Source: Pseudomonadota bacterium
GTDB lineage: Bacteria; Pseudomonadota; Gammaproteobacteria; Steroidobacterales; Steroidobacteraceae
Direction of reading: 5' to 3'
Assembly: GCA_025355105.1 (NCBI GenBank)
Contig: JANYAE010000115.1
Coordinates: 1-64,000 of the forward strand
Length of the DNA stretch: 64,000 nt
A program made the position numbers and the translations under genes. The notes beneath the pieces are model-generated. The model did not search any database. It had not been told where the DNA came from and saw nothing but the letters and a program-made list of their open reading frames with translations. Of the stretch, positions 1 through 13,873 are shown in pieces (position 1 is the stretch's first letter; every line of letters begins with the position of its first letter).

Positions 1-354
1 CGTCGTCAGCGTGAACGCCACCTGGTCGGTCGTGCCGGCGGCGACTCCGACGGCGCTCAGCTGCGCGTTCAGGTAGCCGGTCCTTGATGCAGTGACCGTG
101 TACGCGCCGATCGGAATCGACGCCAGCGTGAAGGCCCCGGCTGCGTCGGTCTGCACGGTCGTCGTGGTCGGCGTCGTCGAGATCGATACCCCGGCAACTG
201 CAGCGCCGGTCGAATCCTTGACGGTGCCGGCAATGGAGCCGGTGTCGAGGCCCGGCGTACCAGGCGCGCCATTCGAGCCATTCGAGCCGTTCGAGCCCGA
301 GCACGCGGCGAGTACTAACACGAGGAGGAGCGTAACGGCGCGGGACGCGTTCAT
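1..354 (-). CDS. Lipoprotein with collagen-like GSNGSNGSNGAPGTPG linker and carboxypeptidase-regulatory/Cna-B-like domain (C-terminus runs off the window)
   Basis: Read on - strand from CAT at 352-354: MNASRAVTLLLVLVLAACSGSNGSNGSNGAPGTPGLDTGSIAGTVKDSTGAAVAGVSISTTPTTTTVQTDAAGAFTLASIPIGAYTVTASRTGYLNAQLSAVG; lipobox LVLAAC; open at the window edge, so absent from the ORF track. Confidence 0.8.
   Translation of the reverse strand, partial: MNASRAVTLLLVLVLAACSGSNGSNGSNGAPGTPGLDTGSIAGTVKDSTGAAVAGVSISTTPTTTTVQTDAAGAFTLASIPIGAYTVTASRTGYLNAQLSAVGVAAGTTDQVAFTLTT
271..297. repeat. Three tandem 9-bp units (attcgagcc/attcgagcc/gttcgagcc) encoding the GSN linker
   Basis: Direct reading of the sequence. 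Confidence 0.8.
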
Positions 355-1967: not shown

Positions 1968-2243
1968 TCAACGATAGATGTCGCTGCGGTTTCCGAGCCG
2001 CAACACTACGATTCGTACTTCGCGATCGCGGATTTCAGCGATGATCCGATAGTCGCCGACGCGGTACTTCCAGAACTGCCCCAGTTCATCGCCTTTGAGC
2101 GCGGCGTCGAGCGTGCGAGGATCCTTCGCAGGGGCCACCCGCTCGCGCAGAAACGCCGAAATCCGTCGGGCGACGGCGGGATCTAGCTTGCGCAGCTGCT
2201 TCGCGGTGCTGTCCGCGAATTCAATCCTCCACGCCAAGCTCAC
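1968..2243 (-). CDS. RelE/ParE-family toxin (likely GTG start at 2243, overlapping the antitoxin stop)
   Basis: WRIEFADSTAKQLRKLDPAVARRISAFL...LKGDELGQFWKYRVGDYRIIAEIRDREVRIVVLRLGNRSDIYR is a typical RelE fold sequence. Confidence 0.85.
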   Translation of the reverse strand: MSLAWRIEFADSTAKQLRKLDPAVARRISAFLRERVAPAKDPRTLDAALKGDELGQFWKYRVGDYRIIAEIRDREVRIVVLRLGNRSDIYR

Positions 2244-2454
2244 GCTCCAAGTCTTCGAGCGGAGTGACGCCCTCTCGGCCTTCGGCGACACGCTGCGCGA
2301 CCTTGCGCGCGAGGAAGAGGTCCTCGAGGTCAGCGATCTGTTCCTCGATGGCCTGCTTGACGTAGAAAGATTTGCTGCGTCCCGTCAGGCGCACCAGCCG
2401 ATCGAGTCTGGCGGCCAACTTCTTGTCGAGACGGATGGAGAACGGTTGCTGCAT
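2221..2454 (-). CDS. RelB/CopG-like ribbon-helix-helix antitoxin
   Basis: MQQPFSIRLDKKLAARLDRLVRLTGRSKSFYVKQAIEEQIADLEDLFLARKVAQRV: RHH N-terminus, directly upstream of the toxin. Confidence 0.85.
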   Translation of the reverse strand: MQQPFSIRLDKKLAARLDRLVRLTGRSKSFYVKQAIEEQIADLEDLFLARKVAQRVAEGREGVTPLEDLERELGVED

Positions 2455-2489: not shown

Positions 2490-2509
2490 TCGCACTACAT
2501 GTAGTGCGA
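2490..2509. promoter_or_regulatory. 20-bp perfect palindrome tcgcactacatgtagtgcga upstream of the relBE-like pair, candidate autoregulatory operator
   Basis: The sequence equals its own reverse complement; lies 36 bp upstream of the antitoxin ATG. Confidence 0.6.
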
Positions 2510-2650
2510 TTTGAGTTATAAATCGGGATCTCGCTGGAAGGGATGCGGACGCCGTCCGGCGGCGCCAAGTGCGGGCGAGGGCGCTGCTGGCGAAAGGGCA
2601 CAAAACTGCGGGCGGAACAGCGTCGACCGGTCGCACTGGCGGACAAACCG

Positions 2651-2826
2651 CTGTAGCGCTTTTTTGTACCACCGGCAGGCTCCCCGGGGCGTCGTCAGAC
2701 TCGGTGTGGCGCAATTCGACGCGCGGCGCCGCGGTAACCCATCGATACGGCTACCAGTGTTCCTCGTCATCCGAGCCTCAAAATCCGCGTGTCGGCGGTT
2801 CAACTCCGCCCCTGGCCACCATTCGA
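2651..2826 (+). repeat. Diverged direct repeat, copy 1 (contains tRNA-Phe 3' half, CCA end at 2819-2821)
   Basis: Aligns by eye over about 175 bp with 3646-3820; ends ...aaaatccgcgtgtcggcggttcaactccgcccctggccacca. Confidence 0.75.
2775..2821 (+). pseudogene. tRNA-Phe 3'-half remnant (anticodon 3' strand, T-arm, acceptor, CCA)
   Basis: ctcaaaatccgcgtgtcggcggttcaactccgcccctggccacca resembles the tRNA-Phe(GAA) 3' half; no D-arm or 5' acceptor strand found upstream. Confidence 0.6.
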
Positions 2827-2994
2827 TTCGCTTCCGGGAGCAAGCGACGAGCTGTCGTGACCGCCGGCAGTCGACATTCTAAACTTTGCTGGCGGGCGGC
2901 AACATCCCGGCCGTCACCCCGAGCGCCCCGCGTCACCCGCAGAAGAGCTCAAGGCCGAGCTCGCCACACCGTAGTGGCAACGAGCGTATGTCGC

Positions 2995-3036
2995 GTTGCA
3001 TGTAACATCGACACTTGATGGGCTGTTACATGTAAC
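2995..3036. promoter_or_regulatory. Two 12-bp operator-like palindromes (2995-3006 gttgcatgtaac; 3025-3036 gttacatgtaac) 30 bp apart, upstream of the mazEF-like pair
   Basis: Second site is a perfect palindrome, first differs by one base; 30 bp centre-to-centre. Confidence 0.55.
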
Positions 3037-3055
3037 GCAGAACGGAGTGCGCAAG

Positions 3056-3274
3056 ATGGCGAGGCGAACGCGGGTTGCAGAGCGCGTCGCGAAGCATCGA
3101 GTGTCGTTGCGCGCGGCAGGGCTTCGGCCGGTGCAAATCTGGGTGCCGGATACACGGCGGACGGGCTTCGCGGCAGAATGTCGGCGGCAGTGCCTGGCGC
3201 TGCGCGGCGACCGCCACGAGGCCAAGACGCTGAAGTGGCTCGCAGCGGCCGCCGATCGGGATGGCTGGAAGTGA
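3056..3274 (+). CDS. MazE-like antitoxin (DUF3018-type)
   Basis: MARRTRVAERVAKHRVSLRAAGLRPVQIWVPDTRRTGFAAECRRQCLAL...; 4-bp GTGA overlap with the toxin. Confidence 0.8.
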   Translation: MARRTRVAERVAKHRVSLRAAGLRPVQIWVPDTRRTGFAAECRRQCLALRGDRHEAKTLKWLAAAADRDGWK

Positions 3275-3594
3275 CGCGCGGTGATCTAGTCACCATCGCG
3301 CTGTCGGGCGACTACGGTAAGCCCCGCCCTGCGCTAGTGATCCAGTCGGATCTTTTCGACGCGCGTCCATCAGTCAGCGTCTTGTCTGTTACCAGCGAAC
3401 TGCGCGATGCACCGTTGTTCCGCATCGCGATTTCGCCGAGCGCGGTCAACGGGCTGCGCAAGCCCTCGCAGGTCATGGTCGGCAAGCCGCAGACCGTGGC
3501 ACGCAGCAAGATCGGCAAGACCATTGGCCGGCTGGACGACGAGGTGATACGCAGGGTCAATCGCGCGCTGGCGGTCTTTCTCGGATTCGCCTAG
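3271..3594 (+). CDS. MazF/PemK-family toxin
   Basis: VTRGDLVTIALSGDYGKPRPALVIQSDLF...VSVLSVTSEL...FRIAISPSAVNGLRKPSQVMVGKPQTVARSKIGKTIGRLDDE; GTG start at 3271. Confidence 0.85.
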   Translation: MTRGDLVTIALSGDYGKPRPALVIQSDLFDARPSVSVLSVTSELRDAPLFRIAISPSAVNGLRKPSQVMVGKPQTVARSKIGKTIGRLDDEVIRRVNRALAVFLGFA

Positions 3595-3645
3595 CGCCCA
3601 CTCGGTTCGATACTGAAAGTTGCTCGCGCGCCCGGCCTCAGATTC

Positions 3646-3820
3646 CTGTAGCGCCTTTTGCACCACCGGCAGACGCGTCAGGACTTCTTGAGACTCCGTG
3701 TGGCGCATTTCGAGTAGAGGTGGTCGGGTAACCGATTGAAATTGCTACCAGTGCTCTTCGTCATCGGAGCCTGAAGATCCGCGTGCCGGTGGTTCGATTC
3801 CACTCCTGGCCATCATTCGA
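3646..3820 (+). repeat. Diverged direct repeat, copy 2 (contains tRNA-Phe 3' half)
   Basis: ctgtagcgcc...accaccggcag...cgtgtggcgca.ttcga...gctaccagtg.tc.tcgtcatc.gagcct.aa.atccgcgtg shared with 2651-2826. Confidence 0.75.
3769..3815 (+). pseudogene. tRNA-Phe 3'-half remnant with intact GAA anticodon sequence
   Basis: gcctgaagatccgcgtgccggtggttcgattccactcctggccatca; 5' half not recognisable. Confidence 0.6.
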
Positions 3821-3996: not shown

Positions 3997-5550
3997 TCAC
4001 GGCTGTGGTCGCACCAGCTGCAGCTCGCCCCAGTCGCCGTTCACGTGTCCGTTCGGGTTGAAGTTGGGGTCGTCGGTCACGATGTACTGATCGTTGCCGT
4101 TCGCCCAGGCGTGGTCATACAGGTTACTGAGCTCGACGGTGCGCCCGGTGGACGAATCACGGAAGGTTTGCACCCCCCGCGTCAACTGGTCAGCTCCGTA
4201 GGCTGCCACCATGGAACCATGCTGCTGTCTGGCCGTCACGCCCTGGATCGTCTCGATCACGTGCTGCTGGAACGCCGCGACTATGGCGTTCTGCTTCTGC
4301 ACCTCCCGCGCCCACTGGGTATAGATCTGGTTGACAAAGCCGCTGTTCCACGCCTGGAACTGCGGATCGATGCGGACGCTGGTCGCCATCACCCGGTACA
4401 GTTTGTCGTAGCCGTCCAGTTTCCCCTTGGGAGTCTGGAAGACGGTGATCTGCTCGGCGTGCCAGTCGTAGGCCGCGCCCCGTCCTGCGACCGGAACAGG
4501 ATGCACGACGATGACCGCGGACCACCATTCATCGATCGGGTCGCCCTTCTCAGTGGTCGCGGAAGCTCGCACCCGCGCGGCCTCGACTCGCGTTGCGCCG
4601 CCACCTGCGCCGCCCCCGTGCGGCCCCAGGCCGAGCTGCAGGCGGACCAGTTGCTCGAGTTCGGGAAACGGCTCCGCGGTCACCTGCGGCCGGTCCTTGT
4701 GAAACTTCCAGACCAGGTACTCCCTGATGAAGTCGGCCGCGTGCATCGGCGCCACGATCGGGCAACCCTTGAGCTTGTACTTCTCATCGAAGCGATCACG
4801 CTGCTCCCACTGCTGCCGGACCGCCGGATCGTCCGCGTACCGGAATGTCGACTGGGGCGCCACGCCCATGCCGTAGGTCCCGTCGCTGCTCTTCACCGCA
4901 CCCTGCACCTGGACGAGATCGGAGAAGCAGCTTCCGGCATCGGTCTTGTTGGCAAACCCCCCGACCAGGCTCCAATCCGTCGGCGCGAGAAGCGAGAAGA
5001 TCTTGCTTTCGTGGTTCGCGTCCACCGGCGGGCTGCTGGGGGCGGGATCGAGCTTCATCATTGCCGTGACCCGTTTGAGCTCGTAGTAGCGAGCCGTGCC
5101 GCTACTCGCATGGGTGACCGGTTGCTTAGTCGCTGAAACCAAGGTGGGACGCGCCCCCTCGCCGGATGAAGCCGGGGCAGCGGCCGGTGCCTTGGGCGCC
5201 GCAGCCGTGGGGGCCGCGAGCGGCGCGCTCCCGGACGTCGGCGCATCAGCGGATGTCGGTTGACCGCCGGACGCCGGAGCACCGGCCGCCGAGCCTTGCA
5301 GCACGCTCGTGACCGCCTGCTTGCACGCGGGAGAGACCTGGTCGCGATGCTCTTTCAGGCACGCGAGCATGCGGCCGCCGCCCGGTTGCACACTTGCGCA
5401 GAACTTCTGCAGGTCGATACTGCAGGCGGCCCGCGCGGCCTCCATCGCAGCGGACTGGGCCGACGCGGGGACTTGAGCCGCGAAGCCCAGAACGGCGAGC
5501 AGTATGCTCGATCGCGGAAATCGATTCGGCCATGACATGGGCAGCTCCAT
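3997..5550 (-). CDS. Exported protein with N-terminal Cys-rich (GLG1-like) segment, unknown function
   Basis: 517 aa; signal SSILLAVLGFAAQVPASAQ; AACSIDLQKFCASVQPGGGRMLACLKEHRDQVSPACKQAV. Confidence 0.7.
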   Translation of the reverse strand: MELPMSWPNRFPRSSILLAVLGFAAQVPASAQSAAMEAARAACSIDLQKFCASVQPGGGRMLACLKEHRDQVSPACKQAVTSVLQGSAAGAPASGGQPTSADAPTSGSAPLAAPTAAAPKAPAAAPASSGEGARPTLVSATKQPVTHASSGTARYYELKRVTAMMKLDPAPSSPPVDANHESKIFSLLAPTDWSLVGGFANKTDAGSCFSDLVQVQGAVKSSDGTYGMGVAPQSTFRYADDPAVRQQWEQRDRFDEKYKLKGCPIVAPMHAADFIREYLVWKFHKDRPQVTAEPFPELEQLVRLQLGLGPHGGGAGGGATRVEAARVRASATTEKGDPIDEWWSAVIVVHPVPVAGRGAAYDWHAEQITVFQTPKGKLDGYDKLYRVMATSVRIDPQFQAWNSGFVNQIYTQWAREVQKQNAIVAAFQQHVIETIQGVTARQQHGSMVAAYGADQLTRGVQTFRDSSTGRTVELSNLYDHAWANGNDQYIVTDDPNFNPNGHVNGDWGELQLVRPQP

Positions 5551-11555: not shown

Positions 11556-12368
11556 GGCGTGTTAACACTAAGTGATACACTCCCGGTATGGAAATCACAG
11601 CCGAACAGTACGCGCGGATCGAGCCGCACCTTCCGATTCAGCGCGGCAACGTCTCGCACCAGAATCTCAACGTGATCAACGCGATTTTGTTTGTCGCGGA
11701 GAACGGCTGTAATTGGCGGGCGTTGCCGAAGCGCTTCGGCAATTGGCACACGATCTACACCCGCATGAATCGCTGGGCGAAAGCCGGCGTGCTGGACCGG
11801 CTGTTTGCCGAACTGCAGCGCGAGCAGCTGATCCGCATCAAGATTGAAGCGGTGAGCCTCGACAGGACGATCGTCAAGGTTCATCCGGAGGGTACCGGTG
11901 CTCCAAAAGCAACGGCCCACAAGCCATCGGCAAGTCCGGCGGCGGCTGGAGCGCCAAAGTTCATATGGTTGCCGCGAGTGCCCGCTGCGCCATAGGGTTC
12001 TCGCTTTCACCCGGACAGGCCGGCGATGCGCCGGAGGGGCGTGCGCCGTTCACTCGATCCATGCGGCGCCGGCGCTGCCCGTCGCCTGCCATCTGCTGAT
12101 GGACTGCGCGTCTGAAGGCAACGAGAGACGCCCGCCGGCGCTCGACGTGGGCTTCATCCCCGTCGTGCCGCCGCATCCGAGCCGCGTTGAGCCCTGGAGG
12201 CTCAAGAAGGCCCCATATCGACGCCGCAACGAAATCGAGCGCCTGTTCAGAAGGCTCAAGGGCCTTCGCTGCATCTTCAGTCGCCTCGACAGGTCCGACC
12301 TGGTGTGCATCGCCTTCAGCTACTTCGCGCTCATCGTGGCAGCACGACGTGAGTAGTGTTAACACGCC
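11556..12368 (+). mobile_element. IS5-family (IS427-like) insertion sequence, about 813 bp
   Basis: 15-bp perfect terminal inverted repeats ggcgtgttaacacta (11556-11570) / tagtgttaacacgcc (12354-12368) enclosing transposase sequence. Confidence 0.85.
11588..12356 (+). pseudogene. IS5-family transposase distributed over three frames
   Basis: MEITAEQYARIEPHLPIQRGN...NWRALPKRFGNWHTIYTRMNRW (frame 1); KSNGPQAIGKSGGGWSAKVHMVAASARCAIGFSLSPGQAGDAPEGRA (frame 2); LLMDCASEGNE...FIPVVPPHPSRVEPW..YRRRNEIERLFRRLKGLRCIFSRLD (frame 3). Confidence 0.8.
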
Positions 12369-13078: not shown

Positions 13079-13873
13079 CTACGCCGCCGGATGCCGTGCT
13101 GCCGCAAGCGCCGCGGCTGCGGCCAGCTTGTGTCTCGCTTGCCATGGCGCCCCGATCGATCGACCCATCGCCGTCAGGAAGGCGTCGACGTCCGCGCCAC
13201 CGAGCGCTGCTGCTGCGTCGCGAATCACGCGCTCGCGGTCGTACCAGTACACCGGCCAGCCGCGTGCCTCGGCTTCGACCGCCAACGCTTCACGGTACAT
13301 GACCGAGTCGGCGACGACCTGCGCGCGATTGTCCGCGATCCGCTGTTCGATCGTCGGCGGAAGCGTGGGGCAGGCGCGGATCGCGATGCGCGCAATCAGT
13401 ACCGGCACGGCGGCGGCCAGCGCGGCGAGGCTCTCGCGTGCGCCGCGGGCGGCGGACTCGTGCACACGCTCAATGAGCGCGACGGCTTCGGCGAGCGTCA
13501 TCGGCCGCGCCCATGGGCTGTTGAGGTAACGGCCCACCGCCCAGGCTCCTTCGTGGTGGTACGGGTGTGTCGGTAGGCCGCGCGTGAGGTCGATGCGCCG
13601 GCGATCGAGTAACACGCCGTCCGCTGCGACGGTCACTAGCACAGCCGAGTTGCCGTGCTCTGCGACGCCGACGGTCGCAGTTCGCTGCGTCCGGCCTCTC
13701 ACCACGTCCTCCACTTTCGAGGCCGCGCCCGGCCGCCGACGTCTTGACATTTCCGGTCCGGATCGCGCGAGTTGGACGCGCCGACCGGCGCGAAAACTAC
13801 CAGCCGTCGGCCAACCCGGCAACGGATGCGGCTTCAATCTCGCATACCGGCTTCGCCGCCGCGAAAGGTGCAC
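13079..13873 (-). CDS. Hypothetical protein
   Basis: 264 aa ORF, soluble composition; start uncertain. Confidence 0.5.
   Translation of the reverse strand: MHLSRRRSRYARLKPHPLPGWPTAGSFRAGRRVQLARSGPEMSRRRRPGAASKVEDVVRGRTQRTATVGVAEHGNSAVLVTVAADGVLLDRRRIDLTRGLPTHPYHHEGAWAVGRYLNSPWARPMTLAEAVALIERVHESAARGARESLAALAAAVPVLIARIAIRACPTLPPTIEQRIADNRAQVVADSVMYREALAVEAEARGWPVYWYDRERVIRDAAAALGGADVDAFLTAMGRSIGAPWQARHKLAAAAALAAARHPAA

Follow-up and report, generated by a model that had tools for sequence, protein, structure and literature searches.

Introduction

Elements are known to accrete in tandem at RNA genes, and CIMEs are likewise known (PMC3146451, PMC5704250), as is the stabilisation of islands by toxin–antitoxin (TA) systems (PMC2654960, PMC8978831). 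In Dehalococcoides, many tandem islands lie downstream of ssrA, each closed by a 3'-end direct repeat with a conserved flanking motif, and 15 ssrA islands without an integration module have been proposed to be cis-mobilizable (PMC3146451). A CIME is an element that has no integration or transfer genes and has retained both att sites (PMC5704250). TA systems occur on site-specifically integrated islands, for example on SXT (PMC2654960) and, in the case of HipAB, on an island at tRNA-Trp (PMC8978831). Small units that have no integrase of their own, with recombination sites between them, form integron cassette arrays and CALIN (PMC11389934).

The locus described here differs from each of these systems. 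The Dehalococcoides islands use a serine integrase and the tmRNA target, are larger and carry rdhA (PMC3146451), whereas here the targets are tRNAs, the integrase is of the tyrosine type and the ~1-kb units hold essentially one TA pair. Described CIMEs (PMC5704250) differ from these units in size, in that the cargo here is TA only, and in the recurrence across tRNA genes; the present units are known from sequence alone. On SXT and the HipAB island the TA system is one pair on a large island, whereas here it makes up nearly the whole unit. Unlike those of integrons and CALIN, the sites here combine an arm with a tRNA 3' half, and the regions examined showed no integron integrase. A literature search of partial coverage returned no TA units of this integrase-less kind at tRNA genes. 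The apparent novelty is the occurrence at several tRNAs of regular ~0.7-1-kb units with essentially one TA pair and no integrase.

The window, a stretch of 64,000 nucleotides from a Steroidobacteraceae genome, very probably holds the distal part of a tandem tRNA-Phe integration array, with attR-type repeats and a CIME-like mazEF unit. The host genome is a draft of 142 contigs, 91% complete. The abundance of chromosomal TA systems is a long-standing question, for which the genus gives a concrete and testable route of arrival and retention. The system also separates two ideas that are usually mixed: the selfish persistence of TA genes after the loss of an island, and the mobility of TA genes as a cassette in their own right.

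Repeats and toxin–antitoxin genes of the window

Repeats 1 and 2 lie in direct orientation and are identical at 139 of 180 positions (77%, E = 2e-35; Table 1). This bears out a sequence-only reading of the region, in which segments of about 175 bp (2651-2826 and 3646-3820) were seen to align, and refines their limits. Each repeat consists of a 126-128-bp arm followed by the final 46 bp of tRNA-Phe. The host genome contains a single match to an intact tRNA-Phe(GAA) gene, on contig C113, and the 3' halves that the same reading had described as lacking 5' halves match this gene at 43/46 (repeat 2) and 40/46 (repeat 1) positions; no tRNA-Phe 5' half is present on C23, the contig of the window, or on contig C76. 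The host-genome search that the reading had proposed recovered, besides the C113 gene, a third copy of the repeat on C76, whose tRNA part is identical to the intact gene at all 46 positions. Over 45 bp, the core of repeat 1 has two mismatches to the tRNA-Phe of G011, a genome of the same genus, and six to its own.

ARAGORN called zero tRNAs in the window. The Rfam tRNA model, whose gathering score is 29, gave 19.8 bits at repeat 2 and, with E-values up to 10 allowed, left repeat 1 unmatched. Neither program accepts the repeats as full-length tRNAs, the outcome to be expected of half-tRNAs. The sequence-only reading had made its tRNA assignment depend on covariance-model scoring: the score of a half does fall below threshold, and the identity of the repeats is established by their match to the tRNA-Phe gene of the host genome itself. 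It is extremely improbable that the repeats are a functional tRNA-like RNA or a regulatory element rather than att sites. The full-length model match at repeat 2 would fit such a role, but it is weak, scores below gathering and includes a long insert, while repeat 1 is unmatched and no tRNA is called.

Only the mazEF pair fits between the two repeats, as had been noted before. The MazE-like antitoxin and PemK/MazF toxin genes are full length, intact and adjacent, the gene arrangement of a predicted MazEF type II TA system. The same arm and tRNA-Phe 3' half stand on both sides of an interior free of integration and transfer genes, which is structurally that of a CIME. MazF has a patchy distribution in the family, with the best homologs (75-78%) coming from distant genera; none of the MazF homologs elsewhere in the family lies near a tRNA-Phe half.

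The earlier reading, correct on the repeats and on mazEF, had missed the third repeat, the integrase by tRNA-Phe and a ParDE pair (1968-2454) immediately left of repeat 1. Comparison of this pair with the copies on C76 gives dN/dS of 0.13 for ParE and 0.05 for ParD, values indicating purifying selection. With adjacent RHH and ParE genes under such selection, the pair has the features of a ParDE/RelBE type II TA system. The palindromes upstream of parD and mazE are likely to be TA operators.

Table 1. Features of the repeat region and its flanks (window coordinates)
Feature	Position	Strand	Remarks
Overlap with contig C76 (third repeat)	1..141	.	141/141 identical
ParE toxin	1968..2291	-	PF05016, 3e-11; homolog beside repeat 3
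ParD-like RHH antitoxin	2221..2454	-	PF01402, 8e-9
Perfect 18-bp palindrome CGCACTACATGTAGTGCG, upstream of parD	2491..2508	.	read from sequence
Repeat 1, overall	2649-2822	+	arm and tRNA-Phe 3' half
Repeat 1 element arm (putative attR-type)	2649..2776	+	shares 75-81% identity with the other arms (repeats 2 and 3, G011)
Repeat 1 arm motif TGTRGCGCNTTTYG, copy 1	2652..2665	+	1 mismatch
Repeat 1 arm motif TGTRGCGCNTTTYG, copy 2	2705..2718	+	1 mismatch
Repeat 1 tRNA-Phe 3' half	2777..2822	+	40/46 identical to the host's own tRNA-Phe
Inverted repeat, upstream of mazE	2993..3038	.	15-bp arms, 14/15 complementary; read from sequence
MazE-like antitoxin	3056..3274	+	PF11455, 2e-29
MazF/PemK toxin	3271..3594	+	PF02452, 2e-23
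Repeat 2, overall	3645-3816	+	arm and tRNA-Phe 3' half
Repeat 2 element arm	3645..3770	+	81% identity with the repeat 3 arm
Repeat 2 arm motif TGTRGCGCNTTTYG, copy 1	3647..3660	+	exact
Repeat 2 arm motif TGTRGCGCNTTTYG, copy 2	3699..3712	+	exact
Repeat 2 tRNA-Phe 3' half	3771..3816	+	43/46 identical to the host's own tRNA-Phe
517-aa protein, right array flank	3997..5550	-	76% DNA identity to the G011 gene right of the orthologous repeat

The element arm

The left edge of the arm falls at the same point beside three cargos: parDE, mazEF, and an S9 peptidase in G011. The same repeat thus occurs beside different cargo, for which the sequence-only reading had recommended a search. The G011 repeat also ends in a tRNA-Phe half; the tRNA similarity, which that reading had expected to hold in relatives if correct, does so. 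In the parDE units the arm is ~76-85% identical and the adjoining intergenic DNA only 50-57%, which suggests that the arm is under constraint. A 14-bp motif, TGTRGCGCNTTTYG, is present in two copies, spaced 52-53 bp, in each of repeats 1-3, and these copies may be arm-binding sites of an integrase. The arm appears to be narrowly distributed: among 217 family genomes it is present only in the host and G011, among 84,980 species genomes it was found in one record, apparently G011, and searches of plasmids, phages and viral contigs gave no match to the repeat.

Other arms were seen at other sites. The tRNA-Lys arm on contig C125 of the host (L227) has the motif TAACCCATTGATAT, which is also found in the tRNA-Phe arm of G011. 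Two loci of another family (L051 in G044 and L062 in G057) have tRNA-Phe halves with a common arm of a different type, and the interval adjoining tRNA-Phe in G044 encodes an AbiEi/AbiEii pair.

The array and its integrase

The final 141 bases of C76, in reverse complement, are the first 141 bases of the window, and because of this identical overlap C76 most likely lies directly left of the window. Read across the join, the order of the array is parDE', repeat 3, ~10 kb, parDE, repeat 1, mazEF, repeat 2 and the gene of the 517-aa protein. The ~10-kb stretch after repeat 3 encodes a multiheme cytochrome, a haloperoxidase-like protein and a TPR regulator; the whole interval from repeat 3 to repeat 2 showed no integrase. 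Further along the window (11559-12367) lies an IS-like element with GTGTTAACAC ends, whose transposase is apparently split over two reading frames.

On C113, a tyrosine integrase gene (PF00589) is located directly downstream of the intact tRNA-Phe gene and convergent with it. Its homologs in the family tend to occupy similar positions: 8 of 12 adjoin tRNA-Phe or its half, and three adjoin tRNA-Cys or tRNA-Ser. The placement of att sites at the tRNA-Phe 3' end, which the sequence-only reading had proposed, is well supported by the intact tRNA-Phe with this integrase, by the exact third half, by the shared edge of the arm and by the different cargo at the orthologous position in G011. The search for an integrase carrying these arms found none, and because the TGTRGCGCNTTTYG motif is absent from the flank of the C113 integrase itself, that enzyme is a conjectural actor on the arms. 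The layout would fit tandem accretion, with tRNA-Phe and integrase on C113 and the three repeats on C76 and C23; since the gap between C113 and C76 is unassembled, we infer the physical linkage of the array to tRNA-Phe.

Repeats 1 and 3 have in common a 987-bp homologous segment that includes parDE, as would be expected if a tRNA-Phe fragment had simply been duplicated, or had recombined homologously, without an integrase. This origin is nevertheless very unlikely: every repeat runs from the arm to the 3' end of the tRNA, five tRNAs have 3' halves that lack the 5' part, and an integrase adjoins tRNA-Phe.

Order of insertion

In G011 the repeat is found at the orthologous position and adjoins the same flanking gene as repeat 2, with the S9 peptidase gene beside it instead of mazEF. 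Position therefore pairs the G011 repeat with repeat 2, but sequence pairs it with repeat 1: ten informative sites group repeat 1 with G011 and repeat 2 with repeat 3, and each of the two alternative groupings has one. This grouping, like the closeness of the repeat 1 core to the tRNA-Phe of G011, fits a mazEF unit that most likely joined the array beside repeat 1 once the G011 lineage had diverged; gene conversion could also have produced the pattern. Simple successive insertion at the tRNA conflicts with the order of the repeats by sequence. Had the crossover taken place at the anticodon loop, the tRNA cores should be distributed in the opposite way to that observed. In a search for the empty site, only one gene of the window (13085-13678) matched the gene adjoining tRNA-Phe in G006 (65%), and as a single gene was matched, it only suggests where the ancestral right border of the island lay.

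In the explanation we prefer, elements would integrate one after another at the tRNA-Phe gene to give a tandem array, each repeat being an attR-type site composed of an element arm and a displaced tRNA 3' half. A tyrosine integrase would recombine at the anticodon loop, judging from where identity begins. The mazEF unit would be a CIME-like unit of 994 bp that entered an already existing array; an att-type site stands at each of its ends, and its interior has a single TA pair and neither integrase nor transfer genes. It may then have persisted because its loss would leave the stable toxin without antitoxin. The att-type structure, the intact tRNA-Phe with its integrase, the exchange of cargo, the selection on parDE and the recurrence of TA units at five tRNAs are observed; the identity of the integrase, addiction as the cause of persistence, and excision are inferred.

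Toxin–antitoxin units at other tRNA genes

We took all 43 ParE (PF05016) matches in 15 genomes of the genus, all of them drafts, and sought nearby tRNA genes and 3'-half copies. A tRNA 3'-half copy lies within 1.2 kb of 16 of the 43 ParE genes and of none of 40 TetR genes from the same genus (Fisher p = 6e-6, only a guide, since the genomes are related and the 43 ParE genes are partly non-independent). The TetR loci, hand-picked across the result list rather than random, showed no half and no tRNA within 3 kb. Loci already available, some of them close to ParE, supplied the library of 22 tRNA types, and this biases detection towards such surroundings. Bracketing within 2 kb was found for eleven of the 43, a count limited by contig ends, and in the host genome four of six are linked to tRNA halves. 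Among PIN genes, 2 of 20 have halves, in a small sample that included one picked because it was already known by tRNA-Arg. A large share of ParE in this genus is found in very small units, with a tRNA gene on one side and the 3' half displaced from it on the other.

The ParE units occur at five tRNAs (Phe, Arg, Lys, Val and Thr). At 45% identity the tRNA-linked ParE proteins fall into six clusters, two of which are each found at two different tRNAs, so the pattern is not that of a single inherited insertion. Three genomes of the genus, in which the tRNA-Arg pattern was first seen via ParE and which are also part of the census, have ParE homologs with tRNA-Arg(ACG) on one side and, only 679-691 bp downstream, a tRNA-Arg 3' half on the other; the shortest intervals, of 0.68 kb, consist essentially of the TA pair alone. 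At tRNA-Arg (L165, L166, L167 and L213), a conserved left end is followed by RelBE in G003, G009 and G013 and by AbrB-PIN in G006, and the tRNA-Arg half comes directly after the toxin stop. Further half-bracketed cargos are TumE, HTH-Fic pairs, AbiE, a second MazEF, and a HipA or PIN gene; several half-bracketed intervals hold no TA system, for example those with a FAD oxidase or S9 peptidase. Together these observations suggest that TA pairs travel in tRNA-targeting mobile elements or are the last part of them to survive.

Two sharper versions of the array explanation could account for the small units; the sequence-only reading had already named both relics of successive integrations and a small cassette mobilised in trans. 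According to the first, which is compatible with the att reading, the unit between two halves is excised and inserted as a small circle, in trans, by the integrases of other elements, in the manner of CALIN cassettes and an integron integrase. The similar sizes (0.68-1.03 kb) at several tRNAs point to this, as do the exchange of RelBE for AbrB-PIN between the same tRNA-Arg left end and half, the presence of one ParE family at tRNA-Lys and tRNA-Arg alike, and the placement of mazEF, which conflicts with insertion at the tRNA only. We regard it as possible but rather unlikely: neither a circle nor an empty-site pair has been demonstrated, many halves are decayed, and the Lys and Arg arms beside the same ParE are non-homologous.

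The second version holds that bigger islands eroded down to an att site, the TA genes and an att site, with deletion of the TA genes selected against. Other intervals do contain TA genes together with gene fragments or an IS-like transposase, the TA genes of this array occupy the attR end of a ~10-kb unit, and TA-stabilised islands are known (PMC2654960, PMC8978831). By itself, erosion leaves the exchange of TA genes between conserved ends and the recurrent ~1-kb sizes unexplained, and we consider it quite plausible, if short of probable; for the older, decayed copies we lean slightly towards it. A more far-reaching reading can be put forward tentatively, though it is unlikely: TA pairs of the genus would be a class of minimal, integrase-less mobile cassettes bounded by tRNA 3' halves. 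Integrases specific for tRNAs would insert, exchange and stack them in trans, and addiction would keep them in place. If true, they would be a tRNA-based counterpart of integron cassettes.

Several individual loci illustrate the variety of such intervals. On contig C125 of the host (L227), tRNA-Lys(CTT) is followed by an RHH-ParE pair and, ~1 kb downstream, by a tRNA-Lys 3' half (38/38). In two species (L204 and L208), pairs of Mobile mystery proteins A and B (HTH plus Fic) lie inside intervals bracketed by tRNA-Arg halves. Contig C112 of the host (L201/L202) has a second array, in which three 3' halves of tRNA-Arg come after tRNA-Arg(ACG) (joined coordinates 1596, 14320, 16508 and 20382), with ParE before the last half and a PIN gene one interval earlier.
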